A stretch of 64,000 nt of DNA. It comes from an uncultured Ignavibacteria bacterium. Lineage in GTDB: Bacteria; Bacteroidota; Ignavibacteria; SZUA-365. The translations under genes were made by a program, and so were the position numbers. The notes below the pieces were generated by a model. It did not search any database, was not told the origin of the DNA, and saw nothing but the letters and a program-made list of their open reading frames with translations. The stretch spans positions 1-64,000 of the forward strand of contig CAJXVM010000024.1 of assembly GCA_913061095.1 (NCBI GenBank). Reading direction: 5' to 3'. Positions 29,685 through 47,544 of this stretch are shown piece by piece. Position 1 is the stretch's first letter; every line of letters begins with the position of its first letter.

Positions 29685-31610
29685 CTATTTAACAAGCATC
29701 ATCGATTTCGTCTGTGTCTGACCGTTCACGGTAAGCGAATAGAGATAGCTCCCGCTCGGCAGATCCGACGCACTGAATGCGACTTCATGGGAACCGGAGG
29801 GAGTCCATTCGTCCACCAGGGTCGCGACCTCTTCCCCGAGCGCGTTGAACACACGAAGCGTTACGAATCCCGATGCGTCGAGCCGGTAGCGAATGGATGT
29901 CGACGGATTGAAGGGATTCGGATAATTCTGCTCGAGCACAAACTGCTGCGCATGCGGCATGGCGTCGACTGCGGTCGAGGAGGAATTATAGAAGTACATG
30001 TTGTCCACGTACACCGTGTTGGGATCGCTCACCAGCACGATCTGCGCAAGGTGTTCCTTTGTCGTCAGGCCGGTGAAGGACGCAAGGGGGATGTCAAGAC
30101 TCACCCAGGTCTCCGATGCGATCGCAGGTGTCGTGCTGCTGCTGAAGGTGAGTTCATGATTCACGTCATCACCGCCGCCGAACGCGCCGTCCGCACCGAA
30201 ATCAACGAGCTGGACTTTGAAGACCGCCGGCTCGGCCGTGGGATCAGGCGTCCAGATGTCCATGTGGAAATGCGTCATGTCCGTCGCATCGATCGTCTCC
30301 GACGTGAATTCGATGCCCGCGAAAACGAGATTGGAATACTTCTTCACGTCGTCGCCGGCGACCTGCACATCTGACACATCGGCGTTGTCCCACTCTGCGG
30401 ACCATGTATCGACCGTCACGTCAGTATAGGCGTTGCTGAACAGCGAGATCACATCGCCTTCAGCCACCGTGGGAGTCGGGGCGGGCTCCGTCGGCTCGGC
30501 CGGCGCGCTTCCCCGATAGAAATACACGTTGTCGACATATACCGTGTTCGGATCACTCACCAGCACAATCTGCGCAAGGTGTTCCTTCGTCGTCAGGCCC
30601 GTGAAGGACGCGAGCGGGATATCGAGGCTCACCCAGGTCTCCGATGCGATCGCAGGTGTCGTGCTGCTGCTGAAGGTGAGTTCATGATTCACGTCATCGC
30701 CGCCGCCGAACGCACCGTCCGCACCGAAATCAACGAGCTGCACTTTGAAGACCGCCGGCTCTGCCGTGGGATCGGGTGTCCAGATATCCATGTGGAAATG
30801 CGTCATGTCCGTCGCATCGATCGTCTCCGAATTAAACTCGATCCCCGCGAAAACGAAATTGGAATACTTCTTCACGTCGTCGCCGGCAATCTGCACATCC
30901 ATGACATCCGCGTTGTCCCAGTCGGCTGACCAGGTATCGACCGTCACGTCAGTATATGCGTTACTGAAGAGCGAGATCACATCTGCCTCGGCAACCGTGG
31001 GAGTCGGGGCGGGAGTATCGGGCTCATTCGTTGTCACGATTTTCTCCGAAAACGTGATATTGTCGAAGTAGATGACACGATCATCCGGCCTGCCGGCCAG
31101 ATCGAAATCAGGGAACACGATGATCTGATCGATATCGGTGGATTCCGGCTGTCCCAGCTTTGTGGAAAAATCGAACACCAGCTCTTCCCATTGATTCACG
31201 AGGGTATTTGCAACCTTGATCTCACCGGTCGATGCGCCTGTCGCTGTTGCGAACTTGATGCCAACATCACTGATGACCGATTTGTACACCATGATTTTCA
31301 CAGTGCAGTTCGTCTCGTCGAGTGTAAATGTGCCGATGTCCGCACCATGCTGTGTCTCGCATCCCGCCCAGGGATTGCCCGCCTGCAGCGCCGTGAAGCG
31401 AGCCACGGTTGCCGACGTGTTCAATCCTGATGCGTCAGGATTCGTTACGATTTCCAATGCGGGATTGGTATCGTTTTCAAAAACCGACCATGTCCATGAA
31501 GCACCGTTGCCGCCCTGTTCAAAATCAATCGGAGCGTTCTGCGCAAATGTCAGACCGCTCAACATGATCATGCACACAAGCGTCACCATGCCCGTACCAT
31601 ACGTTCTCAT
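29685..31610 (-). CDS. T9SS-secreted protein with two tandem glucan-locus modules (putative carbohydrate-binding)
   Basis: About 641 residues from the ATG at 31608-31610 (AGAGGA upstream), signal ending GLTFAQ. Residues about 20-205 form a beta-sandwich like a CBM4/9-type or choice-of-anchor domain (IDQIIVFPDFDLAGRPDDRV and then IYFDNITF). Two nearly identical modules of about 165 residues follow, each beginning APTPTVAExDVISLFSNAY and ending DPNTVYVDNxYFY, then a T9SS sorting domain (LEQNYPNPFNPSTSIRYRLD...TQTKSMMLVK). The same module occurs twice in the lipoprotein at 37187. Last gene of the minus-strand glucan operon, 55 bp after the transporter-GH3 gene. Binding of beta-glucan is inferred from context. 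Confidence 0.8.
   Translation of the reverse strand: MRTYGTGMVTLVCMIMLSGLTFAQNAPIDFEQGGNGASWTWSVFENDTNPALEIVTNPDASGLNTSATVARFTALQAGNPWAGCETQHGADIGTFTLDETNCTVKIMVYKSVISDVGIKFATATGASTGEIKVANTLVNQWEELVFDFSTKLGQPESTDIDQIIVFPDFDLAGRPDDRVIYFDNITFSEKIVTTNEPDTPAPTPTVAEADVISLFSNAYTDVTVDTWSADWDNADVMDVQIAGDDVKKYSNFVFAGIEFNSETIDATDMTHFHMDIWTPDPTAEPAVFKVQLVDFGADGAFGGGDDVNHELTFSSSTTPAIASETWVSLDIPLASFTGLTTKEHLAQIVLVSDPNTVYVDNVYFYRGSAPAEPTEPAPTPTVAEGDVISLFSNAYTDVTVDTWSAEWDNADVSDVQVAGDDVKKYSNLVFAGIEFTSETIDATDMTHFHMDIWTPDPTAEPAVFKVQLVDFGADGAFGGGDDVNHELTFSSSTTPAIASETWVSLDIPLASFTGLTTKEHLAQIVLVSDPNTVYVDNMYFYNSSSTAVDAMPHAQQFVLEQNYPNPFNPSTSIRYRLDASGFVTLRVFNALGEEVATLVDEWTPSGSHEVAFSASDLPSGSYLYSLTVNGQTQTKSMMLVK
29990..30485 (-). 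repeat. Intragenic module repeat, unit A
   Basis: About 495 bp nearly identical at DNA level to 30518-31014 (offset 528 bp). It encodes the second copy of the ISLFSNAY module. The similarity extends to synonymous sites, which points to recent duplication or conversion. Confidence 0.8.
30518..31014 (-). repeat. Intragenic module repeat, unit B
   Basis: Partner of 29990-30485 and first module in the protein. More distant versions are in the gene at 37187-39109, around 37200-37690 and 37722-38215. Confidence 0.8.
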
Positions 31611-31665
31611 TTTATCCTCTGCATAACTGATGAAACAATGACCGCCATACTGGTGGTGCAATTTG

Positions 31666-34600
31666 TCAGGTTTGGTCATACGTCAATCCATATCCGAACG
31701 GGAATAACGGATCATAGGGATCGTCACCCCGGTTCCAGTTGTCCCGATCGCTGCGGGGCCAGGAAAAGCGCAGCTTCCCGGTAAAATCCTCGTCCCCACA
31801 CAGCACATCCGCGATACCCTGGCCCTCCGATCCGGGCAGCCAGGCCGCGACGAATGCCTGTGATTCCTCAAGTTCACTGTTGACGACCAGCGGCCGGCCG
31901 GACAGCAGTACCGCAACAACGGGAATTCCCTGTGCCCGAATGCGCCGGATCGTCTCAAGATCCTCGGGATGCATGCTGGCGAGTTCCAGCGAACTGCGGT
32001 AGGGTTTCATCACCATATCCGGACGCTCCAGGGATGATCCCAGCGCGACCGATTCGCCTTCTCGCACATCTCCCAGCCCCTCCGCGTAGGGAAGCTCACC
32101 GATAACGACGACGGCGGCATCAAACGATGCGTTATCGGCGGCGGAGCCATCCACGCTCAGCACTGCATCGGACAGCCGCGATTGCAGCGCTTCCCAGATC
32201 GACGTGCCGCCCTCAATGGACGCATTGTCTGATACTCCCTGCCAGGCGATGGTGAATCCGCCGCACTGATGCCCCCGGTTGTCCGCGCTTTTCCCGGCGA
32301 CGAGGATGCGCCCGTTCCCTTTCAGCGGCAATATGCCTTCGTCGTTCTTCAGCAGCACAAGGGATTTGCGGACCGCCTCGCGCGCGACTTCCCTGTGGTC
32401 ATCAGAGCCGAAACTCGGATGATTCGACAGTTCGCGCTCCGCGGGTCGAGGCTGATCGAAAAGGCCGGCAATGAATTTCACGGTCAGGATCCTGCGCACG
32501 GCATCGTCGATGCGCTCCATGGGAATGGAGCCGTTCGCGATGAGGCCGCGCATGGTGCTGATGAACTCTTTCCATTTCTCCGGAACCATCACCATGTCGA
32601 TCCCGGCATTGATCGCGAGAGCGACGGCCTCGCCAAAATCGTCCGCCAGCTGATCAATACCGTTCCAGTCCGATATCACAAAGCCGCGGAATCCCAGTTC
32701 CGTTTTCAGCACATCCGTCAGGAGGTACTTGTGTCCATGGCACTTGTTCCCGTTCCAGCTGTTGTATGATGCCATCACGGTTAGGGCGCCTGCTTCCAGC
32801 GCATCATAATACGGGCGGATGTGTGTCTTCTGCAGTTCCGCGAGCGAGACGGCCGTGTCCCCCTGGTCAATCCCGTCCGTCGTGCCACCATCGCCGACCC
32901 AGTGCTTCGCACAGGCCACGACATGCTCCTGTCCGAAATCTCCCTGCAGTCCTTTGACAAAGCGCCCGCCGCAGAGGCGCACGGTCTCCGGATCCTCGGA
33001 ATAGCTTTCGTATGTGCGGCCCCAGTGATCATTCCGCGCCACCGCAAGCGTGGGCGCGAACGTCCACTCCACACCGGTCGCCCGCACTTCCCGCGCGGTG
33101 ACACGTGCGATGCGCTCGAGCAGATCGGGATCACCCGTGGCGCCGAGCCCGATGTTGTGTGGAAACACCGTCGCACCGCGAACGTTGTTATGCCCGTGAA
33201 TCGCATCGACGCCATAGAGAATGGGAATCGCGAGATGCTCCGCATCTTCTTCCACCGAGGCCATCCAGTATGCGTCGTTCATCGCGACCCAGTCGGCGGG
33301 CGTGTTCTCACCGGGGACCGAGCCGCCGCCGCTGAGCACCGATCCGAGATGATAGGCCTTCACCTCTTCGGGACTGACAGCAAGACGCTCGGTCTGCGTC
33401 ATCTGCCCTATTTTCTGATCGAGATTCATGCGAGAAAGCAATGCCTCGACCTTCTGCGCGATATCGTTCTGTTCCATAATCTGATCCATGACCTCTGCGT
33501 GTTGAAGAGCAACGGTAGTCAGTTCCGGCGAAGTCTCCTCAGCACTCCCCCGCCTTCGTTCCAGCTCGACGCGTACTTCGTGTGCAGTCTGTTCGGTGAT
33601 GGGGAAACGCGCGATCGCCCATATGGCGATGGCGGACGTCACCATCGGGATCCCGGCATCGAAAAGCCGCATCAGGAAAATGGTGCGCTCCGACTGCATC
33701 CCTTCGTTGGCGACATCGAAACCCGTCGCTTCGAGAAGGAATCCGCCGCCGGCCAGCGCCGCCGCCATTCCGAGTTTCACCACCCACCAGAAAATCGAAC
33801 CGAACATGCCCTCGCGCCGTTCGAAGGTGGTCAGTTCGTCGACGTCGACGACATCCGCGACCATGGAGCCCATGAGTGTGAACAGGCCGCCGAGGCCGAA
33901 TGCGAGCAGCGGGGCGGGCAGCAAAACGAGCCAGGGATACGACGGATTGTAGCAGAACCACTTGAGACCGTAGCCGAGGATGGAGATTCCCGTCGACCAG
34001 AAGAACGCACGTCGTTTGCCGATCTTCGTGCCAAGCCAGGTGATTAGCACGATTACGCCAAACGTGGAGATTGCGCCCAGTGTGCCGGCGTACCCGGCGT
34101 ACTCCGCTCCGAGCTGCTGATTGCCCGCGAATACGTAATAGATGATCACGTAAAACTGGAAAGAGGAAACCAGCATGAAGCCGTTGAAGACCATGAACGT
34201 CGCGACGCACAGCTTGAGGAAGGGGCCGGATTTGACCGTCTGACCGAATCCTTTGAAAAACTCAACCATGTCACGACGAAACGCCTTCGCAGCTCCGCCC
34301 ACGCGCTTCGCTTTTCCCTCGCTCACTGCAATGTCGCGGAACGGTTCTCGCAGAAAAAGGGCCGGGAGAATGCCGATGCCGATCGTGACAAATGCGATAA
34401 TGATTGCGAGACCGGCGGCTCCGTCAACCTGATCGTTGAAAAACCCCTTATAGGTCATGATCCAGAGAAACCACGGGGACACGACATAGGCCAGCTGGCC
34501 GATAAAGTTCTGTACTCCCATCAGTCGTGTGCGCTCATGATAGTCGGGTGTGAGTTCATACCCGAGAGCGACCCAGGGAGTAGCAAACACCGTATAGCCG

Positions 34601-34989
34601 AGATAGAAGATGATGGATCCGACGAGGAAAAAGATGAAATAGAATGTCTCGCTCTGTCCCCGCGGAAGCTGCCAGAGCAGCGCAAAGGTGATACCGGCGA
34701 TGATCGCGCCGACGAAAATGAACGGCCGGCGCCGGCCCCATCGCGTCCGGGAATGGTCGGAAATGTATCCCATCAGTGGGTCGGTCAAGGCATCGGTCAG
34801 TCGCGGAAGCGCTCCGAGCAGCCCGACCAGCGCAGGATTCATTCCCAGACCGAGGTTGAGGACGATGATCATCCCGCCGCTTGCCGCGGCCAGTGTATTG
34901 TTGATGAACGCCCCCAGCCCATAAATCACCTTATGGGTGAAGGAGATGCGATCTTCCGGTGCGGTGGCGTACCGCTCGCCTGCTTTCAT
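31666..34989 (-). CDS. Fusion: GPH/MFS-type sugar transporter + GH3 beta-glucosidase in one polypeptide
   Basis: About 1107 residues, one uninterrupted frame (ATG at 34987-34989; a GTG five codons upstream is possible). Residues 1-465 are a 12-helix glycoside-pentoside-hexuronide symporter: DALTD (two Asp spaced like MelB D55/D59), then SDHSRTRWGRRRPFIF, the family loop motif. Residues 466-505 are a charged helical linker. Residues 506-1107 are a complete GH3: KVEALLSRMNLDQKIGQMTQ, VDAIHGHNN, VACAKHWVGDG, nucleophile Asp774 in GFVISDWNGI, and the C-terminal half with SLVLLKND and PFGYGLTY. GPH proteins normally have both ends in the cytoplasm, so the enzyme would meet imported disaccharide at the inner face. 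Fourth gene of the glucan operon. Either half alone would be routine; the join is unusual. Confidence 0.9.
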   Translation of the reverse strand: MKAGERYATAPEDRISFTHKVIYGLGAFINNTLAAASGGMIIVLNLGLGMNPALVGLLGALPRLTDALTDPLMGYISDHSRTRWGRRRPFIFVGAIIAGITFALLWQLPRGQSETFYFIFFLVGSIIFYLGYTVFATPWVALGYELTPDYHERTRLMGVQNFIGQLAYVVSPWFLWIMTYKGFFNDQVDGAAGLAIIIAFVTIGIGILPALFLREPFRDIAVSEGKAKRVGGAAKAFRRDMVEFFKGFGQTVKSGPFLKLCVATFMVFNGFMLVSSFQFYVIIYYVFAGNQQLGAEYAGYAGTLGAISTFGVIVLITWLGTKIGKRRAFFWSTGISILGYGLKWFCYNPSYPWLVLLPAPLLAFGLGGLFTLMGSMVADVVDVDELTTFERREGMFGSIFWWVVKLGMAAALAGGGFLLEATGFDVANEGMQSERTIFLMRLFDAGIPMVTSAIAIWAIARFPITEQTAHEVRVELERRRGSAEETSPELTTVALQHAEVMDQIMEQNDIAQKVEALLSRMNLDQKIGQMTQTERLAVSPEEVKAYHLGSVLSGGGSVPGENTPADWVAMNDAYWMASVEEDAEHLAIPILYGVDAIHGHNNVRGATVFPHNIGLGATGDPDLLERIARVTAREVRATGVEWTFAPTLAVARNDHWGRTYESYSEDPETVRLCGGRFVKGLQGDFGQEHVVACAKHWVGDGGTTDGIDQGDTAVSLAELQKTHIRPYYDALEAGALTVMASYNSWNGNKCHGHKYLLTDVLKTELGFRGFVISDWNGIDQLADDFGEAVALAINAGIDMVMVPEKWKEFISTMRGLIANGSIPMERIDDAVRRILTVKFIAGLFDQPRPAERELSNHPSFGSDDHREVAREAVRKSLVLLKNDEGILPLKGNGRILVAGKSADNRGHQCGGFTIAWQGVSDNASIEGGTSIWEALQSRLSDAVLSVDGSAADNASFDAAVVVIGELPYAEGLGDVREGESVALGSSLERPDMVMKPYRSSLELASMHPEDLETIRRIRAQGIPVVAVLLSGRPLVVNSELEESQAFVAAWLPGSEGQGIADVLCGDEDFTGKLRFSWPRSDRDNWNRGDDPYDPLFPFGYGLTYDQT

Positions 34990-35080
34990 GCGCCTGAACT
35001 CCACGTGTCAATGGGTTTCTCCGGTGCGATCGGACAACACAGCGGTTGTCGCCTTCTGCCGTGCTCTATGCCGGAAGGAG

Positions 35081-35902
35081 CTATGATGCGACCTCCTCGT
35101 ACACGCGCACATAGTCGATGAGCATGCGCTGCGGGAATATGGTATTCTCGTTCGGCGCGCCGACCCAGCCGCCGCCGACGGCCAGATTGAGGATGATGTA
35201 GAATGGATGATTGAACACCCATTCACCGGGAACATCCTCGCGCGAAACGGTGTGGTACAGGGTGCCGTCAACAAACCAGCGGATCTCATCCGCCTTCCAT
35301 TCGACAGCGAAGGTGTGAAATCCCGTGTCGAAACGGTCATTGGGGAGGTCGTACCGCTTCGTCACCGCCTGGGCCGCGGAATATCCCGGCCCGTGGAGAC
35401 TGCCGTGAAGGGTGCTCGGCTGCTGTCCGCGATACTCCATGATGTCGATCTCGCCGCACTGCGGCCAGCCGACCGTTTCGATGTTCGCGCCAAGCAACCA
35501 GAACGCGGGCCACATGCCCTGGCCCCAGGGCAGCTGAATACGCGCTTCGAAGCGTCCGTACGTGCGTTCGAACAAATCCCGGGTCACGATACGCGCCGAT
35601 GTATAGGGCTGTCCGAGGTACGATTCCTTTCGCGCCGTGATCACGAGGTTTCCTTCGCCATCGAGCGACGCGTTTTCGGTTCTGTCAGTGTCGTATTCCA
35701 GCTGGGCGTTCCCCCAGTCCGTTCCGATGTCATGATCCCACTTCGTCGAATCCGGCGGGAGCCCGGCGGCACCGTCAAATTCGTCCTGCCAGACGAGCCT
35801 CCACTGGGAGGATCCCGGATCGGAAGCGTCGTCACCGCAGCCACTGAGGAAAAGGCCGAGAGTCAGCATGGTGAGACAACTCTGTATAAGGATGTGTTTC
35901 AT
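35081..35902 (-). CDS. GH16 endo-beta-glucanase (laminarinase-like) lipoprotein
   Basis: 273 residues. Lipobox LSGC with Cys22, so membrane-anchored outside the cytoplasm. GH16 fold throughout: WQDEFDG, GRFEARIQLPWGQGMWPAFW, and the catalytic signature GEIDIMEYRG with nucleophile Glu151, Asp153 and acid/base Glu156 (the E-x-D-x-x-E form with Met typical of laminarinases and related 1,3-beta-glucanases rather than 1,3-1,4 lichenases), FHTFAVEWKADEIRWFVDG, and a final MLIDYVRVYE. It would cut beta-1,3-glucan chains outside the inner membrane. Its ATG overlaps the stop of the ROK gene by 4 bp; the transporter-GH3 gene follows after 91 bp. Confidence 0.93.
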   Translation of the reverse strand: MKHILIQSCLTMLTLGLFLSGCGDDASDPGSSQWRLVWQDEFDGAAGLPPDSTKWDHDIGTDWGNAQLEYDTDRTENASLDGEGNLVITARKESYLGQPYTSARIVTRDLFERTYGRFEARIQLPWGQGMWPAFWLLGANIETVGWPQCGEIDIMEYRGQQPSTLHGSLHGPGYSAAQAVTKRYDLPNDRFDTGFHTFAVEWKADEIRWFVDGTLYHTVSREDVPGEWVFNHPFYIILNLAVGGGWVGAPNENTIFPQRMLIDYVRVYEEVAS

Positions 35903-37206
35903 ATGCGCACCTGATGATATCGCGGAGATGAAAAAAGTGTCGGATCGGCGAATGCGGCGTTGAGGACAAGTGTTGATGCACCAATGGCGACCGCGCTGGG
36001 ACCAAGCTCACCGATACAGATCTCGGTTGCTGCGACGGATGTAACATAGGTGCGCTCGCGCACGATGGACCGCAGACGTTCGAGCAGCAGATCTCCCGCC
36101 CGCGTGAGGCTGCCCCCGAGAATGATCATGGCGGGATTCATCACATTGAGCAGTCCGGCAATCGCGATGCCGAGATGCTCTGCCGCTTCACTGACAACTT
36201 TCGCGGCAAGGGGATCCCCCGCGCGTGCGGCATCCGCAAGCTGGAGAATTGTCATTTCTTCCGAGCTGAGAGCTGTCTGCTGATACAGCGATCGCAGCGC
36301 CCGGGCACGCGCCAGCAGTGCATCCGTCCCGATAAAGGTTGCCAGGCAGCCCCGCAGACCGCAGACGCAGGGATCGCCTTTCGGGTCAACGGTCATGTGG
36401 CCGATTTCTCCAGCCACCCCGGTGCTCCCGCGATAGATTTCACCACCGAGAATGATGCCCGCTCCGATGCCAGTCGCAACCTTGATGTAGGTAAAGTCCC
36501 GCACATCCCGGCCGGCCCCCCACCATCCTTCCGCAAGCGCACCGAGATTCGCGTCGTTATCCACCAGTATCGGGACGCCGTATCGCCGGTGCAGATTCTC
36601 CAGCCCGATGCGTCCGCGCCAGGATGGCAGCACAACATCTGATATGCGCTGCAGATGGCGAGGATCGACAGGGCTGGGGACCGCGACCCCGATCCCGAGC
36701 AGCCTGCGTGTTCCATTGCCATTGCGTCCCATGCATTCGTCACATAATTCCATCACCGCGGATCGGCTTGCCTCGACGTCTCCGTCGACCGGTCGCTCGC
36801 GCTCCTTCCACTCCAGCACTTTTCCGCGCAGATCCGTCAATGTGACCGAAATGTGCGTCGCTCCGAAATCCACTCCCAGGATTTCGAACGCATCGTCCTG
36901 GAATTCCAGCACGACTGGCCGTCTGCCGCCGCTGGAGGGTTCCATCCCGACTTCCGCCACCAGTCCCGATTGAAGCAGTTTTCGCACGATGTCCGACACC
37001 GTCGAGCGCGCGAGCTTCGTGCGCCGGGCGATGTCGGCGCGGGAGATGCGACGCTCCCGCCATATCAGCTCAAGGACGATATCGGCGAGTGAACGCGGTG
37101 CCTGCGTTCCCGGGAGCGACAGGTCTGCTCCGTACGTGGCATCGGTATTCAGCCCGATCGAGGCCGCGGGCAGATTCGAGAGCGGTTTATTCGTGGAAGT
37201 AAACAT
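35899..37206 (-). CDS. ROK-family transcriptional regulator of the glucan locus
   Basis: About 435 residues from the ATG at 37204-37206, which overlaps the end of the upstream gene by 20 bp; longer in-frame starts are less likely. Residues 35-95 form a winged helix (SRADIARRTKLARSTVSDIV). The ROK sugar-kinase-like domain has LGVDFGATHISVTL, DNDANLGALAEGWWGAG, GIGAGIILGG and the zinc motif CVCGLRGCL; the usual Glu after GCL is Ala. Such NagC/XylR-type proteins release DNA on binding a sugar or sugar phosphate. Second gene in the operon, so likely autoregulated. Candidate operators lie at 39190-39204 and 39325-39344. Confidence 0.88.
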   Translation of the reverse strand: MFTSTNKPLSNLPAASIGLNTDATYGADLSLPGTQAPRSLADIVLELIWRERRISRADIARRTKLARSTVSDIVRKLLQSGLVAEVGMEPSSGGRRPVVLEFQDDAFEILGVDFGATHISVTLTDLRGKVLEWKERERPVDGDVEASRSAVMELCDECMGRNGNGTRRLLGIGVAVPSPVDPRHLQRISDVVLPSWRGRIGLENLHRRYGVPILVDNDANLGALAEGWWGAGRDVRDFTYIKVATGIGAGIILGGEIYRGSTGVAGEIGHMTVDPKGDPCVCGLRGCLATFIGTDALLARARALRSLYQQTALSSEEMTILQLADAARAGDPLAAKVVSEAAEHLGIAIAGLLNVMNPAMIILGGSLTRAGDLLLERLRSIVRERTYVTSVAATEICIGELGPSAVAIGASTLVLNAAFADPTLFSSPRYHQVRI

Positions 37207-39109
37207 TGTCGATATAAATCGTGCGGAGATCACCTGAAATAACGATTTGTGCGATGTGCCCTCGCGTAACGAGTCCGGTGAAGACTGAGAGCGGGATATC
37301 AAGACTGCTCCAGTTGCCAGTGGTGATCGCGGGAGTGGTTGAAGCATTCAGCGACACTTCATGCTCGACGTCATCGCCGCCATCGAATACACCATTGGGT
37401 CCGAAATCAACCAGCTTGATTTTCAGCACCGCGGGATCGGTGATGACATCCGGAGTCCAGACGTCCATGTGAAAATGCGTCATGGCTGTGGCATCGATGG
37501 TCTGGGAGGTAAACTCGATCCCGGCGAACACGACACTGGTGTATTTCTTGACGTCATCCCCCTCAATCGTGATGTCGGCGAGATCGGCGTCATCCCAGAC
37601 CGCGGACCAGGTGTCCACCAGCACGTCATCATAGGCATTGCTGAAAAGTGAGATCACTTCCGACGCCGGGACGGTCGGTGTGGGAGCAGGCACTGCAGGT
37701 TCGGTCGGCATGTCGCCTCGATAGAAATAGATGTTGTCGACGTACACCGTATTAGGATCGCCTGAAATGATCATCTGCGCGAGATGGGCTTTTGTTCTCA
37801 GTCCGGTGAACGCCGAAAGCGGGATATCAAGCCCGACCCAGCGATTGCTCGCCAGTGCAGGCATCGATGAGCTCGTCAGAGTGAGTTCGTGCTCGGCATC
37901 ATCCCCGCCGCCGAATGCACCGTCCGCGCCGAAATCAACCAGTTTGATTTTGAATACAGCCGGCGGGTCCGTCGGATCCGGCGTCCAGAAGTCCACGTGA
38001 AGGGTGGTCATGTCCGAGGCGTCAATCAGCTGCGAGGTGAACTCGATCCCGGCGAACACGAGGTTGGAATATTTCTTCACATCGTCACCCTCGATCTGGA
38101 TATCGGATACGCCGGCATCGTCCCAGTCGGCGGACCAGGTATCGACCGGGACGTTGGAGTAGGCATTGCTGAAAAGCGAAATGACATCGGCAGCGGCGAT
38201 CGTCGGCACGGGCGCCGGTGCGGCGGGTCCGGGTGCCGCTTCGCCGACCGTGACCGTCACCGTGCCGTCGACGTCCACCGATCCGAGCGTGGCGCTGATC
38301 GTGGCCGTCCCCAGGCCGACGGCGGTGATAAGCCCGTTCTCGTCGACGGTCGCAACGCCGTCATCGGAAGAGGAAAATGTAAAATACCCGGGCAATGCGT
38401 AGATGGTATTGGGCACCCCGCTCTGATCATAGGTGACGCCGGTCCCTTCGACGGGAAAGCTGTCGTTAATCTCCGCCGTGACCGTACGGCTTGTCATGAA
38501 CGGTTTCGGATGTGCGAGTGTCCCGAGGCGCTCGAACTGTACGTCATCGATGAACAGCTCGTATCCGTTTCCGTTCTCCGGTCCCTCGGCCAGGAATAGG
38601 AGTCCCCGTTCCTGCACGAGTTTCTCGGGAAGCGGAATGGGAAGGGTGTATTTTCTCCATGTCGTGGAGACAGGCAGATCGGACTTCAGCGCGACATAGC
38701 GAGAGGTGCCGGAGTTGTCATTTCCGAAGCCGACCTCATTGAGCGTGGCAGGCATGCTCCCTTTTGCCCAGAAGGTCAGCGCGTCATATCCCGACAGGTC
38801 GCGTCCGCCCGCGCTGACAAACGTGCCGCCCGCGAACGATCCGGACGGATCGCCCTCATTCGGAATGACGAACATCAGCGACTTTGTGCCGCGGTATGTC
38901 ACCGAAGTCGAGATATCAAGGGCATCGACCTTTGAAGCGCCAAAGGCATGGTATTGAACACCGGGACCGAATTCGTCAATGAACACTTCCGCAGTCGTGG
39001 GATACGCAGCAGGCTCGAGTGTGCTCTCGTCCCTCTCGCAGCCGGCCGTGACCAGTATCATGACGACGGCCGCAGAAGCTGCGAAACGGATCATACTATT
39101 CGCGGTCAT
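37187..39109 (-). CDS. Lipoprotein with Ig-like domain and two glucan-locus modules (putative glucan-binding)
   Basis: 640 residues. Lipobox VTAGC with Cys24. Residues about 35-200 are a galactose-binding-type beta-sandwich (FWAKGSMPATLNEVGFG, LFIDDVQFERLG). Residues 205-295 contain a BIG2-type Ig fold (VATVDENGLITAVGLGTATI). Two 165-residue modules follow (DVISLFSNAYSNVPVDTWSA and EVISLFSNAYDDVLVDTWSA), each closing with DxxTVYVDNIYFY or a variant, homologous to the pair in the T9SS protein at 29685. No enzyme motif is seen. It occupies the place where other Bacteroidota loci have a surface glycan-binding lipoprotein. First gene of the operon, transcribed from the promoter at 39205-39233. 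Confidence 0.8.
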   Translation of the reverse strand: MTANSMIRFAASAAVVMILVTAGCERDESTLEPAAYPTTAEVFIDEFGPGVQYHAFGASKVDALDISTSVTYRGTKSLMFVIPNEGDPSGSFAGGTFVSAGGRDLSGYDALTFWAKGSMPATLNEVGFGNDNSGTSRYVALKSDLPVSTTWRKYTLPIPLPEKLVQERGLLFLAEGPENGNGYELFIDDVQFERLGTLAHPKPFMTSRTVTAEINDSFPVEGTGVTYDQSGVPNTIYALPGYFTFSSSDDGVATVDENGLITAVGLGTATISATLGSVDVDGTVTVTVGEAAPGPAAPAPVPTIAAADVISLFSNAYSNVPVDTWSADWDDAGVSDIQIEGDDVKKYSNLVFAGIEFTSQLIDASDMTTLHVDFWTPDPTDPPAVFKIKLVDFGADGAFGGGDDAEHELTLTSSSMPALASNRWVGLDIPLSAFTGLRTKAHLAQMIISGDPNTVYVDNIYFYRGDMPTEPAVPAPTPTVPASEVISLFSNAYDDVLVDTWSAVWDDADLADITIEGDDVKKYTSVVFAGIEFTSQTIDATAMTHFHMDVWTPDVITDPAVLKIKLVDFGPNGVFDGGDDVEHEVSLNASTTPAITTGNWSSLDIPLSVFTGLVTRGHIAQIVISGDLRTIYIDNVYFHE

Positions 39110-39233: not shown

Positions 39234-39295
39234 GAAAAAAATCATCCCGACCGCCATAATTATCCATTCTTAAGGACTATATGCACATTTTTTTC

Positions 39296-39324
39296 TTGAC
39301 ATCGCTCAGAAAACATGCTACATT
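39296..39324 (+). promoter_or_regulatory. Sigma70-type promoter of the glycosidase-barrel gene
   Basis: TTGACA (39296-39301), 17-base spacer, TACATT (39319-39324). Leader of about 88 bases to the ATG at 39419. Divergent partner of the promoter at 39205-39233. Confidence 0.65.
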
Positions 39325-39344
39325 GTTTGCGATTCGAACAAAGT
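39325..39344 (+). promoter_or_regulatory. Candidate operator at the glycosidase-barrel promoter
   Basis: GTTTGCGATTCGAACAAAGT directly after the -10. It shares CGAACAAAGT with the opposite promoter, in the same orientation relative to transcription, and together with the preceding TT (TTGTTnG...CnAACAA) forms an imperfect inverted repeat. Confidence 0.55.
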
Positions 39345-39418
39345 ATGCCGCAAGATGTTGCTCGGTGGCCCAAACGTGTTTCCGCCAGACAGACTTTCCA
39401 TTTCGTGAGGAGGCTCTC

Positions 39419-42400
39419 ATGACTTCGACCCGTGTTCGCGCTACCCGTGTGTTCTTCCTGATCATTTGCACTCTCACGTTCTTCCTTGCAGGAACATCAG
39501 CGTCCAACGCACAGGTCGCTGACGTCCGCGTCGTCACTGATGAAGCCGGTATGCGGCTTCAGGTCGATGGAAAGGACTTCATGGTCCTCGGTATGAACTG
39601 GGACTACTTCCCCATCGGCACGAATTACTCGTACAGCCTGTGGACCCAACCGGACGACATCATCATGGCGGCACTGGACCATGAAATGACCATGCTCCAG
39701 GAGATGGGTGTGAACGCGATCCGGCAGTACGTCGGCGTGCCCCCACGCTGGGTGAAATACATTTACGAGCGCTATGGCATTTACACGGTGCTCAATCATC
39801 CGCTGGGCAGATACGGCGTGACCATCAACGGCGTGTACTATGCGTCGACCGACTATTCGGATCCCGACACGCGCGCCTCCATTCTGGCGGAAGTCGAAGC
39901 CATGGTCAACGAGTTCCGTGACGTCCCGGGCGTGCTGATGTGGCTGCTGGGGAATGAGAACAACTACGGACTCGTGTGGAAATCCGCGGAAACCGAGGCG
40001 CTGCCGGAGGGTGAGCGAGACGCGGCCAAAGCGCGTTATCTGTATTCGCTATTTGGCGACGCCACCCGGCTGATCCACGGCATGGATACGAAACGCCCGG
40101 TGGCAATGGCGAACGGCGACCTGCAGTACATCGACATCATCGCCGAGGAGGTCAAGGAACTCGATATCTTTGGCACGAACGTCTATCGGGGCATGTCATT
40201 CAGGGATGCTTTCCAGGAGGTCAAGGACAAACTGGGAATCCCCATCATGTACACGGAATTCGGCGCGGACGCCTTCAACGCAAAAGAAATGCGTGAAGAC
40301 CAGCTGATGCAGGCGCGGTATCTCATCTCCCAGTGGCAGGAGATTTACGAGCAGTCAAGCGGAAAAGGCAGGGTCGGGAATTCGATCGGCGGATTGACAT
40401 TTCAGTTCAGCGACGGATGGTGGAAATTCAAGCAGGAAAGCAATCTTGATGTGCATGATGTAAACGCCTCCTGGCCGAACGATGCGTACCCGGAAGATTA
40501 CGTGCCCGGCGAAAACAACATGAATGAAGAGTGGTGGGGCGTCTGTGCAAAGGGGCCGACCGATGCCCGCGGTCTGTACAAGCTGTACCCGCGCGCGGCC
40601 TACTACGCGCTGCAGAAGGCACATCGGCTCGATCCGTACGGCCCCAATACCGATCTCAATACGATCCGGGAACATTTCGCTTCCATCCGTCCCATCGGAG
40701 CTGTTCTTGAGGCCCGCAGCGATCGGGCAGCACTGCTGACCGAAGCCTTCCAGGGTGTCCGCGTCAGCGGGCTCCGGATCGATATGAGCACGATCAGCAC
40801 CGGCGGACACAACATCAGCACGCCGGATGAAATCGATCCGAACGACGACAGCCGCCCGTCATTCCGTGGATTCGATCATCTCGAATCTTTCTATGCGAAA
40901 ATCGAAGCGCGTCCGGCACCCAATGTCTCGGGCAGCGTCGCGGTGAACGTGCTGGGCAATGTCCCCGAAAATCCAATCAATGAAATCTTCTACGAAAACC
41001 GAGGCCGCGTCCGCAATGCCGAGCTCGACGGCGAGCAGCTTCCACTCACCGATATTGAACGCGTCAAGGTATACAGCGCGAATGTGTCATGGGACAGCCA
41101 GTGGTTCACGCTCGATGGATTCTACCGCACGGGGCACTATCACTGGGGATATGAAGGCGACTTCTTCGGATTGTACCAGGAAGCCAATTACGGTCCGAAC
41201 ATCGACCTGTACAATGGGAACGCCCCGCTCGGTGTTGAAATCGAAGGGAAGAAGCAACTCAGTGGCCTGAAGATCGCGGTCGGACCGGAACTCTGGTGGG
41301 GAGCGAATCCCGCGGTCCTTCTGAAATACCAGCGGCAGCTGGGTTCGATCGTGGCAACCGCCATCTATCAGGAGGATCTCGATGATCAGGGACCCGCAGT
41401 GAGTTCGATCGCCATCCCGCTTCCGCCCACGCGAAAGGCCACTCTTCATCTGGAGACGGAGTACGGTCCGTTCGGCATTGAAGTCGGCGGTATCTGGTCG
41501 GGCGATACGAAAACCGGCCAGCCATTCCAGATCGCGAGCGGATCTCCCGGGAGCTACACGGTGCTGCAGGACTATATCAAATCGGAAGACGCCTTCGGCG
41601 CAAAAGCCAAACTGACGCTTTCCAGCGGCCGCTGGAACTGGTATGCGCAGGGTACTGCCAGGGGGCTTGTCGCGGATGGCGGTCCGACGTCGGCGCTCAC
41701 GTTCACGGGATGGAGGCTCAAGGACAACGGCTTCGGAAACCAGTACAACGTGCTGACAGGGCTCGCCGTGACCATGGGGAGTTTCCAGGTCGCTCCGAAC
41801 TTCCTGTGGCAGAAGCCCATCGTAGGACCGATCCCGGCGGACGTCCCGGCTCCGGGCAGACCGCGCAACGTGCTGGACGATCCCTTCGCCGTGCGCGTGA
41901 ACCGCGAGACCACAGCTGGCGAACTCCTCATCACCTACGATCCCACGCCCGCGACCTGGATGTACGCATGGGACAGCGACATGCGTGAGGACGCGAAATT
42001 CGCCGCCAGCGTGGGATTCGTATTCCGCCACCATCCGACGACGCAGGATGCCGCGATCGGCATTCTGGCCGACGGTCGAACCACCTTCGCATTTCCCGGC
42101 GCTGCGCCGGCGCGTGATCTCTGGGAGACGTACGCGCGCATCGTTTCAAAATTGCGTCCGGGGCTGGGCCTGATTGCGAACATCTATGGCGGCACCGGTG
42201 AACCAAACGGCGACGACGACCGTCTGATCCATCGCTATGGTGCCGACATCCGTCTCGTCCTGAACTCCCTGAAATTTGCCGCCATGGCGAAGGTCAACGA
42301 CTGGGGTCCGTACGACTATCATCGCGACTTCAATCAGACCTTCCCGCTGCAGCTGGTCGGTGACCTCTCCTATATGCTGGGATCGCCCGCCTGGTTCGAC

Positions 42401-42583
42401 CTCCCGCAGACGCGGATTGGACTGTGCGGAACGTGGCGATCCCTCGACGAGTATTCGCCGCGATACTGTCCGGGCCGGACGCCGAATGCCTCTGGTGTAT
42501 TGGAATGCGATCCCGACCTGCCGGGTGAGAACGGCAGCGAGTGGGAAATCCGTACGTACATTCAGTTGAATATTGGAATGTGA
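39419..42583 (+). CDS. Fusion: clan GH-A TIM-barrel glycosidase + predicted outer-membrane beta-barrel
   Basis: About 1054 residues from the ATG at 39419 (GAGGAGG upstream), signal ending SASNAQ. Residues 35-480 are a clan-A (beta/alpha)8 glycosidase: LGMNWDYFP, MGVNAIRQYVGVPP, acid/base Glu180 in WLLGNENNYG, nucleophile Glu280 in IMYTEFGADAF. It resembles the GH2/GH5/GH72 type; the exact family is not assigned. Residues about 500-1054 lack helices and alternate polar and hydrophobic residues in strand-length runs with many Trp and Tyr (WFTLDGFYRTGHYHWGYEGD, WNWYAQGTARGLV, LQLVGDLSYMLG), ending in the strand IRTYIQLNIGM, as in outer-membrane barrels. It may trim glucan at an outer-membrane pore. 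Divergent from the ROK operon, with GH3 next. Confidence 0.8.
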   Translation: MTSTRVRATRVFFLIICTLTFFLAGTSASNAQVADVRVVTDEAGMRLQVDGKDFMVLGMNWDYFPIGTNYSYSLWTQPDDIIMAALDHEMTMLQEMGVNAIRQYVGVPPRWVKYIYERYGIYTVLNHPLGRYGVTINGVYYASTDYSDPDTRASILAEVEAMVNEFRDVPGVLMWLLGNENNYGLVWKSAETEALPEGERDAAKARYLYSLFGDATRLIHGMDTKRPVAMANGDLQYIDIIAEEVKELDIFGTNVYRGMSFRDAFQEVKDKLGIPIMYTEFGADAFNAKEMREDQLMQARYLISQWQEIYEQSSGKGRVGNSIGGLTFQFSDGWWKFKQESNLDVHDVNASWPNDAYPEDYVPGENNMNEEWWGVCAKGPTDARGLYKLYPRAAYYALQKAHRLDPYGPNTDLNTIREHFASIRPIGAVLEARSDRAALLTEAFQGVRVSGLRIDMSTISTGGHNISTPDEIDPNDDSRPSFRGFDHLESFYAKIEARPAPNVSGSVAVNVLGNVPENPINEIFYENRGRVRNAELDGEQLPLTDIERVKVYSANVSWDSQWFTLDGFYRTGHYHWGYEGDFFGLYQEANYGPNIDLYNGNAPLGVEIEGKKQLSGLKIAVGPELWWGANPAVLLKYQRQLGSIVATAIYQEDLDDQGPAVSSIAIPLPPTRKATLHLETEYGPFGIEVGGIWSGDTKTGQPFQIASGSPGSYTVLQDYIKSEDAFGAKAKLTLSSGRWNWYAQGTARGLVADGGPTSALTFTGWRLKDNGFGNQYNVLTGLAVTMGSFQVAPNFLWQKPIVGPIPADVPAPGRPRNVLDDPFAVRVNRETTAGELLITYDPTPATWMYAWDSDMREDAKFAASVGFVFRHHPTTQDAAIGILADGRTTFAFPGAAPARDLWETYARIVSKLRPGLGLIANIYGGTGEPNGDDDRLIHRYGADIRLVLNSLKFAAMAKVNDWGPYDYHRDFNQTFPLQLVGDLSYMLGSPAWFDLPQTRIGLCGTWRSLDEYSPRYCPGRTPNASGVLECDPDLPGENGSEWEIRTYIQLNIGM

Positions 42584-42674: not shown

Positions 42675-44864
42675 ATGGAACACACGTCCTCTCCGGATAC
42701 GCAGATTCGTGATCTGCTGCAGCGCATGACACTCCCTGAAAAGATAGGTCAGCTGCAGCTGGTCAACGGTGCCGGCGGTACTATCCCGGACGACCTGCGC
42801 GCAGCGGTCGCCTCGGGAAGCGTCGGCGCTGTCCTCAATGAAGTCAATCCGGCGGTTGTTCATGAGCTTCAGAGCATCGCTGTCCATGACAGCCGTCACG
42901 GCATTCCGCTGCTGATCGGTCGAGATGTCATTCATGGTTTTGCGACAGTGTTTCCGATTCCGCTCGGGCAGGCCGCGAGCTGGAATCCGGAGATCGTGCG
43001 GCGCGGCGCCCGGATCGCGGCGCGCGAGGCCGCGGCGACAGGGATCAACTGGACCTTCGCTCCCATGGTCGACATCGGTCGTGATCCCCGGTGGGGCAGA
43101 ATTGCCGAGACGCTCGGAGAGGATCCCTATCTGAGCGGTGTGCTGGCCGCAGCGATGGTGCGGGGATTTCAGGGCGACGACCTGTCGCAACCCTCGAGCC
43201 TCGCGGCCTGCGCGAAGCATTTCGCCGGGTACGGCGCCAGCGAGAGCGGTCGTGACTACAACACGACGAATATTCCGGAAATCGACCTGCGCGACATCCA
43301 CCTTCCGTCATTCAAGGCGGCGTGTGACGCCGGCGTCGCCACCTTCATGACCTCGTTCAGCGACCTGAACGGCATTCCCGCAACCGCCAATGACTTCCTC
43401 CTGAAAAAAATTCTCCGTGAAGAATGGGGATTCGACGGCTTCGTCGTCAGCGACTGGGAGTCCGTTTCGCAGCTGTCGATTCACGGACTGACGCCGGACG
43501 ACAGAGAGTCCGCCTTCGAGGCAGCGCAGGCGGGGCTCGACATGGAGATGGCGAGCACGACCTTCGCCGCGCATCTCGCTTCCCTGGTCGAAGAAGGACG
43601 CATCCCGGCTCAGAGAATCGATGCGATGGTGGAAAATGTCCTGCGCATCAAATTCCGCCTCGGCCTTTTTTCACACCGGCACGAGCACACCGAAGATCTT
43701 TCCGTTATCGCACACCCTGACCACCTCTCCGCTGCAAAGGATGCCGCTGTCGAGAGCATGGTGCTGTTGAAGAATGACAACAATCTGCTTCCGCTGGCAA
43801 CAACGGAGCGCACCTCGATTGCCGTGATCGGACCACTGGCGGACGATCCGTACGAGCAATTAGGGACGTGGATATTCGATGGGGATGAACGGCACAGTGT
43901 TACTCCTCTGCAGTCCATCCGCCAGGCGGTTCCGGAGGATGTAACCATCCATCATGCGCGCGCGATGGCGACGACACGAAGCCGGGATCGGGAAGGATTC
44001 GACGAAGCACTGCGGTGTGCCGCCGATTCCGATGCCGTCATTCTCTTTCTCGGAGAGGAATCCATCCTCTCCGGGGAAGCGCACTGCCGTGCCGATATCC
44101 GCCTTCCCGGGAATCAGGAAGAGCTCATCAGGGAAATCGCCGCGATCGGCAAACCCGTCGTGCTCGTGATCATGGCGGGCCGGCCGCTGGCTCTCGAAGA
44201 CGTCATCGGCAGCGTGGACGCACTGCTTTACGCCTGGCATCCCGGCAGCATGGCGGGTCCGGCCATCGCCGACCTCCTGTTCGGCGCCGCGGCACCGTCC
44301 GGCAAACTTCCGGTCACGTTCCCGCGTGTCACGGGTCAGATCCCGATCTACTACGCCCACAAGAATACGGGCAAACCCGCGATTCCATCCGAGGTAATGC
44401 ACATCGACGACATTCCTCCCAGGGCACCACAGGTGTCATTCGGACTCACATCCTTCCATCTCGACGCGGGAGCCTCCCCCCTCTTCCCCTTCGGCTTCGG
44501 CCTTTCGTACACGACGTTCAGATACGACAATATCAGAACGGACACACCCGAGATTCAGCTTGGCGATCGCATCGTTGTCACCGCGGACCTGACAAACACC
44601 GGAGACCGGGAGGGCACGGAGATCGTGCAGCTCTACGTGCGTGATCTGGTCGGCAGCGTCACGAGACCGGTCAGGGAACTCAAGGCATTCAAACGCGTCC
44701 TTCTGCAGCCGGGAGAAATGCAGTCCGTTTCCTTCGAACTTCATACCGATGATCTCGCCTTTACCAACAGGCACATGCAGCGTGTCACGGAACCGGGTGA
44801 ATTTTACGCGTGGATTGGAGGCAGCTCGGAAACGGAGCTGAAAGCCCGGTTCATGGTCCGTTGA
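42675..44864 (+). CDS. bglX: GH3 beta-glucosidase, cytoplasmic (BglX-like)
   Basis: 729 residues and no signal peptide, so probably cytoplasmic. Typical GH3 order: RMTLPEKIGQLQLVNG, GRDVIHGFATVFPIPLG, NWTFAPMVDIGRDPRWGR, ACAKHFAGYGA, nucleophile Asp260 in GFVVSDWESV, then the alpha/beta sandwich (VLLKNDNNLLPL) and the FN3-like C-terminal domain (GLSYTTFRYDN, VQLYVRDLVGSVTRPVRELK). It would release glucose from short beta-linked oligosaccharides. Probably transcribed from the barrel-glycosidase promoter, 91 bp away. The locus therefore encodes two GH3 enzymes, this free one and the transporter-fused one. Confidence 0.9.
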   Translation: MEHTSSPDTQIRDLLQRMTLPEKIGQLQLVNGAGGTIPDDLRAAVASGSVGAVLNEVNPAVVHELQSIAVHDSRHGIPLLIGRDVIHGFATVFPIPLGQAASWNPEIVRRGARIAAREAAATGINWTFAPMVDIGRDPRWGRIAETLGEDPYLSGVLAAAMVRGFQGDDLSQPSSLAACAKHFAGYGASESGRDYNTTNIPEIDLRDIHLPSFKAACDAGVATFMTSFSDLNGIPATANDFLLKKILREEWGFDGFVVSDWESVSQLSIHGLTPDDRESAFEAAQAGLDMEMASTTFAAHLASLVEEGRIPAQRIDAMVENVLRIKFRLGLFSHRHEHTEDLSVIAHPDHLSAAKDAAVESMVLLKNDNNLLPLATTERTSIAVIGPLADDPYEQLGTWIFDGDERHSVTPLQSIRQAVPEDVTIHHARAMATTRSRDREGFDEALRCAADSDAVILFLGEESILSGEAHCRADIRLPGNQEELIREIAAIGKPVVLVIMAGRPLALEDVIGSVDALLYAWHPGSMAGPAIADLLFGAAAPSGKLPVTFPRVTGQIPIYYAHKNTGKPAIPSEVMHIDDIPPRAPQVSFGLTSFHLDAGASPLFPFGFGLSYTTFRYDNIRTDTPEIQLGDRIVVTADLTNTGDREGTEIVQLYVRDLVGSVTRPVRELKAFKRVLLQPGEMQSVSFELHTDDLAFTNRHMQRVTEPGEFYAWIGGSSETELKARFMVR

Positions 44865-45006
44865 AATCCCGCTGCGGTAGTGAACAACCGATAACACATC
44901 CCTTCACGGAAAACCGCCTGAAGTTTGTTTGCCGGGGAAGTATTTGATAGGTTGCGGAAGATCATCTCTTGTTCTCCGTGTTTCCTTCCCCAAGTGCCCG
45001 CGGCGG

Positions 45007-46338
45007 ATGACTGACAAGCTTCAACGATCCGGATGGTTGCCGTACACAGGTCTGCTTCAGTGCTGTATTGTCCTGTGTATCGTGTTCGCGATTGCTCCGA
45101 AGAGTTACGCGCAGGCTCCGGTGCAGCTCAGCCTCGACAGCGCGAAACAGTGCGCACTGGATTACAATAAAACAATCGCGAATGCGGATCTCTCCGTCGA
45201 TGACGCGAGAGCCCGCCTGCGGGAAACCGTCGCCCAGGGGCTCCCCCAGATACATGCCACCGTGGACTACTCCAATTTTTTTGGTTCATCGGCTTCTCTC
45301 GGCAACTTTCCGGGTATGCGCATTACGTTTAATCCCACAAGCAATCTGGGATTGACTGTCAGCCAGCTCGTTTTCAGCGCCGGATGGATTGTCGGCATTC
45401 AATCGGCAAAGCTGTATCGGGAGATGATGAAAGCCGGCAGGGAGAACACCCGTGCCACCATCCTTGCACAGGTCACCGAAGCGTACACGCTGTGCCTCGT
45501 TTCCGAGCGTATCCGACAGGGTCTCACGGAGAATCTCGAGAACATGCAAACCGTCCTCGATCAGACGAAGGTGATGGTCGACGTCGGCATGGCGGAAGAA
45601 CTTGACTATGACCAGCTCGCCGTTCAGGTCGGGACCATCGGCGATGCACTGAAAGCGGCGGAAAGACAGGTGGAAATCTCGCTGAATATGCTGCGACTGC
45701 TGATAGGCGTTCCGGCAGAGCAGATCATCACCCTCACCGACGGCATTGAAACACTCGTCGCGCACGCTGACTTCCGCGGCAGCCTCGACAGACCTTTCTC
45801 CCTTGAAGCCAATCCCGAATACCGGATGATGGCCCTGCAGACCGATATCGCCCGGCGTGCCGTGCGACTGGAACAGTCAACCCTCCTTCCGACGATTACG
45901 GGATTCTACAGCTATACGGAAAAACTGCTCAAACCGGAATTCGACATTACACCGAAGCATGTCATCGGACTGAACCTGAGCCTGCCGCTGTTCACCAGCG
46001 GGCTTCGATTGCACCGCATCGAACAGGCACAGCTCAACACGCAAATCGCTGAAAACAAAATGGAGCTCCTCACCCGCGAACTCGCCATCAGGGAAAAACA
46101 GCTCCGCTACAATCTGAGTAATGCCATCGATCAGTACGAAAACCGACGGACAAACATGGAGGTCGCGAAGAAGGTCTTCATGCATATGAACAACAAGTAC
46201 CAGCAGGGCATGGTCTCATCGCTGGACCTGACGACCGCGCACAACACCTCCATCCAGGCTGAAAATAATTTCTATAACGCCCTGCTTCAGCTGATACAGT
46301 CGCAGGTCGCCCTGGACAGACTCCTGAACACGCTGTAA
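45007..46338 (+). CDS. TolC-family outer-membrane efflux protein
   Basis: About 443 residues from the ATG at 45007, giving a signal peptide ending SYAQ. Two outer-membrane-efflux (OEP) halves with long coiled helices (KQCALDYNKTIANADLSVDD, REKQLRYNLSNAIDQYENRR) and strand segments between. The C-terminal NKYQQGMVSSLDLTTAHN is the usual TolC-type turn. First gene of the efflux operon; the adaptor gene follows after 77 bp. It forms the exit duct through the outer membrane. Confidence 0.9.
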   Translation: MTDKLQRSGWLPYTGLLQCCIVLCIVFAIAPKSYAQAPVQLSLDSAKQCALDYNKTIANADLSVDDARARLRETVAQGLPQIHATVDYSNFFGSSASLGNFPGMRITFNPTSNLGLTVSQLVFSAGWIVGIQSAKLYREMMKAGRENTRATILAQVTEAYTLCLVSERIRQGLTENLENMQTVLDQTKVMVDVGMAEELDYDQLAVQVGTIGDALKAAERQVEISLNMLRLLIGVPAEQIITLTDGIETLVAHADFRGSLDRPFSLEANPEYRMMALQTDIARRAVRLEQSTLLPTITGFYSYTEKLLKPEFDITPKHVIGLNLSLPLFTSGLRLHRIEQAQLNTQIAENKMELLTRELAIREKQLRYNLSNAIDQYENRRTNMEVAKKVFMHMNNKYQQGMVSSLDLTTAHNTSIQAENNFYNALLQLIQSQVALDRLLNTL

Positions 46339-46415
46339 ATCCGGAGGACATCCGTCCCGTTTCGCACAGCGCCGATTCGCACGTCCTCGAAATTGATCCA
46401 ACGGACAAGAGCACC

Positions 46416-47468
46416 ATGAAAGCTTTCCCTCGATTCATCGGCCCCCTCCTTGTTGCCCTTGCCGCAGCAGGCTGTTCCCCGTCCGAAGATGCGCCGGACA
46501 ACGGCGATTCGGGCAAGGACGGACGGATCGAACCGGTTCGCGTGATGGAATTGAAGCCCCGGGAGATACCCCGGCGAGTGTCGTACAACGCGCAGCTTCT
46601 CGCCATCCGGGAGGTTCACCTCGCTCCCGCATCCCCCGGTCGTGTGGACAGGATACACGTTGATGTCGGCGACCGCGTATCGGAGGGAGAGCTTCTTGTC
46701 GAGATGGACAGAACGCAGCTTCAACAGGCGCTGGTACAGATGCAGAATCTGGAAACGGATCACCGGCGCCTGGATACGCTGCGCAAAACGGGCAGCGTCT
46801 CGCAGTACCAGTACGATCAGCTTGCCACGCAGTACGAGATTGCGAAAACGAACGTCTCTTTTCTCAAGGAAAACACCCGGCTGAGTGCTCCGTTTTCCGG
46901 GACGGTGTCCGGGAAATATTTCGAGAATGGCGAGATGTACTCCGGTGCTCCCAACACGTCCGCCGGGAAAGCGGCAATCCTCTCCCTGGTCAAAACGGAC
47001 AGCCTCAAAGTGCTGATCAATGTCGCGGAGAGTTATTATCCTCTTATCAGGAAGGGCATGGCATCGACGCTCCGTGCCGACGTCTATCCGAACAGAGAAT
47101 TCCGGGGAATCGTGACCACCGTCTTCCCGACCATTGATCCCGCGACGCGAACCTTCGTCACGGAAATCAGCATGGGCAATCCCGGCGGACTCCTGCGGCC
47201 CGGCATGTTCGCACGCGCCGAACTGACGCTGCAGCAGGTGCAGGCTCTCGTGGTACCCGCCATCGCGGTGATGAAGCTTCAGGGTTCCAATGAGCGTTTC
47301 GTCTTCCTTGAGAAGGACGGGCATGCTCACCGCGTGGTTGTCGAAATCGGTGAGCGACACGACGATATGCTGGAACTGATTTCCAGGGAAATCCGCCCCG
47401 GTGATCGACTCATCATCGCAGGACAATCTCGACTCGTTGATCAGAGCCCCGTCAGGGTTAGCAAATAA
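46416..47468 (+). CDS. RND efflux periplasmic adaptor (membrane fusion protein)
   Basis: 350 residues. Lipobox AAAGC with Cys20, so a lipid-anchored adaptor like AcrA. The lipoyl-type hairpin is visible in two halves (LAPASPGRVDRIHVDVGDRV and ENTRLSAPFSGTVSGKYFEN) around a short coiled coil, followed by the beta-barrel domain (VYPNREFRGIVTTVFPTIDP, RTFVTEISMGNPGGLLRPGM) and membrane-proximal domain. It links the inner-membrane pump to the TolC-like duct. Confidence 0.92.
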   Translation: MKAFPRFIGPLLVALAAAGCSPSEDAPDNGDSGKDGRIEPVRVMELKPREIPRRVSYNAQLLAIREVHLAPASPGRVDRIHVDVGDRVSEGELLVEMDRTQLQQALVQMQNLETDHRRLDTLRKTGSVSQYQYDQLATQYEIAKTNVSFLKENTRLSAPFSGTVSGKYFENGEMYSGAPNTSAGKAAILSLVKTDSLKVLINVAESYYPLIRKGMASTLRADVYPNREFRGIVTTVFPTIDPATRTFVTEISMGNPGGLLRPGMFARAELTLQQVQALVVPAIAVMKLQGSNERFVFLEKDGHAHRVVVEIGERHDDMLELISREIRPGDRLIIAGQSRLVDQSPVRVSK

Positions 47469-47544
47469 CGTGTTCCACGTCCGCCGTTTCATGACGGCGC
47501 GTGCTTGATCCCCCTCCGATGCAGACTGGAGTCCGCGTAGAAAT

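Follow-up and report, generated by a model that had tools for sequence, protein, structure and literature searches.

An MFS_2 sugar transporter fused to a GH3 beta-glucan hydrolase in a predicted beta-1,3-glucan cluster of an Ignavibacteria bacterium

The fused gene and its neighbourhood

A gene encoding an N-terminal MFS_2 sugar transporter and a C-terminal glycoside hydrolase of family 3 (GH3) resides in the genome of an uncultured Ignavibacteria bacterium (assembly GCA_913061095.1, contig CAJXVM010000024.1). The whole stretch analysed, called the window, corresponds to the first 64,000 nucleotides of this contig. Features are listed in Table 1. Genes for a GH16 lipoprotein, a ROK regulator and a Big_2 protein are located upstream of the fusion on the same strand, and a gene for a secreted protein with repeated modules downstream. 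A GH2_C-like protein and a second GH3 are encoded by the opposite strand. The order ROK-GH16-transporter is found in the related loci L007, L009, L035 and L014, the order GH16-transporter in L008 and L018. A GH17-like gene lies directly 3' of the fusion in L008, L009 and L035, scoring below the Pfam cut-off in L008 and L035.

Table 1. Features of the fused gene and of the surrounding cluster
Feature	Position	Strand	Basis and remarks
Fused transporter-GH3 gene	31666..34989	minus	ATG start, 1107 aa and stop; homologues begin at the equivalent Met
MFS_2 sugar transporter, N-terminal	33565..34989	minus	Pfam MFS_2; 12 predicted TM helices (AlphaFold2); phmmer against PDB finds MelB
Cytoplasmic linker (predicted), about 34 aa	33463..33564	minus	Varies between lineages; low pLDDT at 481-487, then helix 487-507
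Linker ATG (M510), apparent place of the former GH3 start	33475..33477	minus	In all 6 gap-free fusions; Ile in L010
GH3 enzyme, N and C domains, ExoI/ExoP type, without FnIII	31669..33462	minus	Pfam; alignment and Foldseek to ExoI/ExoP
D779 (SDW motif), aligned with the ExoI nucleophile	32668..32670	minus	D in 23/23 GH3 rows of the alignment
E975 (PYxE motif; PYTE in ExoI), aligned with the ExoI acid/base	32080..32082	minus	E in 23/23 GH3 rows
GH16 lipoprotein (lipobox LSGC), predicted beta-glucanase	35081..35902	minus	Pfam; same position in L007, L008, L009, L014, L018, L035
ROK-family regulator	35899..37347	minus	Pfam; same position in L007, L009, L014, L035
Secreted protein, repeated VISLFSNAYTDV modules, weak Por sorting tail	29685..31679	minus	Similar neighbour in L006
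Secreted Big_2 protein	37187..39109	minus	Same repeated modules as the 29685-31679 protein
Conserved neighbour: signal peptide, GH2_C-like TIM barrel, beta-rich half	39281..42583	plus	
Second GH3 (with FnIII, BglX-like), without signal peptide	42675..44864	plus	

The original prediction held that one uninterrupted polypeptide joins two full-length halves, and considered that a stop or frameshift hidden near the junction, or relatives always carrying two genes, would undo this view. The prediction held on all these points. The 1107-codon frame has zero internal stops on the minus strand, and is open across the linker as it is in the relatives. Full-length fused homologues, 69-76% identical, were found in five other genomes: one of the same genus (L006, matching G004), two within the GN15/Zixibacteria phylum sample (L007 and L008), and two Ignavibacteria (L009 and L035). 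The MFS_2, GH3 N and GH3 C domains all score far above the Pfam cut-offs, and the motifs singled out earlier (DALTD, RTRWGRRRP, KHWVGDG, ISDW) are all present in the protein. An alternative GTG start at 35004 would extend the frame to 31666-35004; the ATG at 34989 is favoured because the homologues start there.

The linkers of L007 and L008 differ by 12 base changes over 31 codons (2 in first, 10 in third position) and are identical in 31 of 31 residues, a pattern denoting purifying selection on the linker in this pair. This selection, together with the five further full-length homologues, excludes a chance open frame. The existence of relatives with two separate genes would fit an assembly artefact, or a missed stop, merging two genes in the window, but the frame is kept in independent MAGs of three lineages and the linker is under selection. 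The chance of such an artefact is negligible, and assembly error was rejected as the origin of the fusion. Importer and beta-glucan hydrolase are joined in a single polypeptide by a genuine gene fusion. In a further homologue of the same genus (L010, matching G003) a stretch of N in the linker makes the gene look split, and the frame is open up to the gap; a split gene or a programmed frameshift was rejected, as the scaffold gap explains the break.

Some neighbours have features of their own. Repeated VISLFSNAYTDVTVDTWSA modules, which have no Pfam name, occur in the proteins encoded at 29685-31679 (minus) and 37187-39109 (minus). The repeat is probably an unnamed glycan-binding module, and glycan binding is a probable function of the 29685-31679 protein. 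One module copy is inserted in a TIM-barrel protein in L008 (12650-16453, minus). Counterparts of the protein encoded at 39281-42583 (plus), about 1050-1100 aa long, reside in L007 (10875-14081), L018 (11762-14935) and L035 (344-3553), all on the minus strand. The long beta-hairpin stretch following the TIM barrel in this family reads like an outer-membrane barrel, and the proteins could be enzyme-porin fusions (AlphaFold2 pLDDT 40). A GH3 resembling the second GH3 of the window is encoded near the transporter in L018 and L019. This second GH3 lacks a signal peptide, which brings the probable cytoplasmic GH3s of the cluster to two. An RND efflux operon (TolC-like, HlyD-like and AcrB-like genes, 44929-50679, plus) is located directly 3' of the second GH3 gene.

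Domains and membrane side

The MFS_2 domain (PF13347) spans residues 50-471 (217 bits, cut-off 27). The transporter had been described as GPH-type, a label which turned out to be loose: membership in MFS_2 stands, but the TIGR00792 model (GPH:cation symporters), although aligned over its whole length, scores 160.8 bits, below the NCBIfam cut-off of 231.35. The melibiose permease MelB, a GPH symporter likewise of the MFS_2 family, was aligned over most of its length (2e-12, phmmer against PDB); MelB is a distant relative, and has no enzyme domain. GPH transporters of the LacS type feature an extra soluble IIA domain at the C-terminus, in the cytoplasm, and are similar to the fusion in this modular arrangement. 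Unlike GH3, IIA does not act on the substrate as an enzyme, but has a regulatory role as phosphoacceptor.

The GH3 N-domain was identified at residues 528-842 (270 bits, cut-off 27), the C-domain at residues 882-1109 (125 bits, cut-off 31). The closest solved structures found by Foldseek are 5m6g (a Saccharopolyspora glucosidase), ExoP and barley ExoI, with 44-48% identity. Like ExoP (an exo-1,3/1,4-beta-glucanase of Pseudoalteromonas, 3usz/3ut0) and ExoI, the GH3 half features two domains with aligned catalytic Asp and Glu residues; the ExoI residues aligned with D779 and E975 are the nucleophile and the acid/base, respectively. Judged by its sequence, the GH3 half is a complete beta-glucan hydrolase with both catalytic residues, and is predicted to be active. 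ExoP and ExoI are stand-alone enzymes, whereas the fused GH3 has a transporter in front, and Phe replaces ExoI Trp434 (numbering according to the PDB titles). The export signal of related secreted GH3s is absent in the fused GH3 domain, which follows TM12.

The AlphaFold2 model of the fusion (mean pLDDT 84.7, pTM 0.60) consists of 12 long TM helices up to model residue 460, followed by a short helix, a poorly modelled linker and the GH3 fold. The mutual placement of the two domains is not fixed by the model, given the pTM value and a linker pLDDT <50. The basic loops fit the positive-inside rule with both termini internal. The even number of TM helices and the basic cytoplasmic loops place the C-terminus inside.

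Unfused relatives are informative on the same point. L021 (Rhodothermales) has separate genes for transporter and GH3, the ATG of the latter overlapping the end of the former, and its GH3 starts with MSDVVIPKEQ, without a signal peptide. In Gemmatimonadota the two genes are arranged tail to tail, their ends overlapping slightly or being separated by up to ~335 bp. In these relatives a free cytoplasmic GH3 beside the same transporter suffices. According to a hydropathy test, used in place of SignalP, 28 of 29 distinct unfused GH3s of the clade (>=55% identity) lack a signal-peptide-like stretch near a possible start, whereas 31 of 32 more distant, outgroup GH3s have a signal peptide. In the one exception of the clade (L014) the stretch precedes the likely ATG. 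The whole GH3 clade therefore looks cytoplasmic, and the fused enzyme is almost certainly so, as the original prediction had it. A periplasmic GH3 domain would cut oligosaccharides before uptake, glucose being the transported species. The outgroup GH3s are exported, and a coupling of hydrolysis and product uptake has been suggested for a GH17 fusion (Unfried et al. 2018, PMC6246565). Both the even number of helices with basic cytoplasmic loops and the loss of signal peptides throughout the clade contradict a periplasmic location, which is highly improbable.

Distribution and origin

The GH3 fusion is rare. It was found in 1/395 genomes sampled from the window's phylum, in 2/132 and 2/164 genomes of two further samples, and in none of those sampled from the phylum of L013 (Gemmatimonadota, 0/298) and from the class of L021 (0/196). 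These tallies are lower bounds, because E-value limits were strict and few candidates were scored per genome. L012 (G437) bears the title Candidatus Kuenenia stuttgartiensis, but is assigned to the same phylum as L013 (Gemmatimonas) and has Gemmatimonas-type genes; it is probably a mislabelled MAG. In L170 (G875) and L174 (G806), GH3s of the clade form part of open frames that are 1715 and 1760 codons long, possibly GH3-GH3 fusions, or only long frames in GC-rich DNA.

The GH3 tree groups the fusions in a single clade with weak support (72/34). In the transporter tree they require four changes, and a single clade is weakly rejected (AU p 0.042). A single fusion passed from phylum to phylum, combined with splitting or with exchange of the transporter half, is possible, and so are several separate fusions.

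The junction ATG in the fusions is apparently a remnant of the former GH3 start. Being conserved in all gap-free fusions, and close to the GH3 start position of the two-gene form, it could drive synthesis of free GH3 from an internal start (M510 or M506) along with the full fusion. But no Shine-Dalgarno-like signal is common to the junction ATGs of the fusions compared, an AGG at good distance being found in L007 and L008 only, the aligned ATG is lost in L010, and the codon may be a mere fusion scar. Synthesis of two products is thus rather improbable.

Predicted role and relation to MFS-GH17 fusions

The locus is most likely a beta-1,3-glucan cluster. The conserved ROK and GH16 lipoprotein genes, and GH17 in some of the loci, point to beta-1,3-glucan (laminarin-type) oligosaccharides as substrate. 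As no GH17 match was found in the window's own genome, the laminarin reading rests on GH16, the ExoP-type GH3 and the relatives. ExoI-type enzymes accept several beta-glucan linkages, and cello- or mixed-linkage oligosaccharides are accordingly possible substrates too. The substrate, a beta-linked disaccharide in the original prediction, is better described as a beta-1,3-gluco-oligosaccharide.

The protein is likely to be the fused importer-hydrolase of a laminarin-type utilisation cluster, working by surface cutting, MFS_2 import and cytoplasmic release of glucose, most likely from sugar fragments of algae or plants. The GH16 lipoprotein and other surface proteins would degrade the polymer to oligosaccharides, the MFS_2 domain would carry short beta-gluco-oligosaccharides across the inner membrane, and the GH3 domain, tethered at the cytoplasmic face, would remove glucose from them. 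Tethering may keep hydrolysis local to the membrane and cytoplasmic oligosaccharide low, and fix a 1:1 stoichiometry. Substrate, transport direction, cation coupling and the gain from tethering are all points that we infer.

Fusions of the same design are known. FbGH17b (FORMB_24740), an MFS-GH17 fusion, is encoded by a Formosa laminarin PUL; such fusions are common in marine Flavobacteriia, a coupling of hydrolysis and uptake has been proposed for them, and none was then known elsewhere (Unfried et al. 2018, PMC6246565). At least one GH17-MFS fusion is included in most of the variant 1 laminarin PULs that were expressed (PMC10108472). FbGH17b and the window fusion both feature an N-terminal MFS_2 domain and a C-terminal glycoside hydrolase in a single chain, and reside in beta-1,3-glucan loci (predicted in the case of the window). 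They differ in the enzyme, which is GH17 in the former and GH3 in the latter, and in the surroundings, as the Formosa loci include SusC/SusD, and neither was recognised among the window proteins scanned. Six MFS_2-GH17 fusions were recovered (L141-L146), three of them confirmed by Pfam. Their transporters are homologous to that of the window fusion (37-38% identity), and unfused members lie between the two types in a tree with long branches and SH-aLRT support only. Given this distance, and unfused transporters with the two types on opposite sides, common descent of the fusion does not fit, and the GH3 fusion looks to have arisen independently. No paper on an MFS-GH3 fusion was found in the open-access literature, and in the open-access papers found transporter-CAZyme fusions are described for MFS-GH17 only. 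The idea of an importer-enzyme fusion is already known with GH17; the GH3 pairing is a new version of it.

What the fusion provides can be seen in two ways. Co-translation could be all, the fusion fixing expression ratio and membrane location with neither sugar hand-over nor kinetic gain. Many relatives encode the two proteins by separate genes, the fusion is rare in all samples, and the linker differs between lineages, as co-translation alone would allow. But the fusion has been kept in three distant lineages, and the parallel GH17 fusion in the same transporter family is widespread (PMC6246565). These last two observations suggest a benefit, and co-translation alone is a serious candidate with slightly less than even chances. 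Alternatively, the protein could be a transport-coupled hydrolase, the GH3 active site taking the oligosaccharide directly at the cytoplasmic mouth of the importer. Neither the AlphaFold2 model, in which the domain placement is not fixed, nor the relatives with a free GH3 back this part of the original prediction. This direct transfer is unlikely; if true, free oligosaccharide would never accumulate, and a single transporter family would have arrived at this solution twice, once with GH17 and once, independently, with GH3.

Natural versions with fused, overlapping and separate genes (~70% identity), along with a clean loss of signal peptides, make a test set for the effect of tethering and for the membrane side. 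As a second, independent fusion of the same transporter family, here to a different beta-glucan enzyme, the protein suggests that a link between import and hydrolysis has been repeatedly favoured in the uptake of beta-1,3-glucans.
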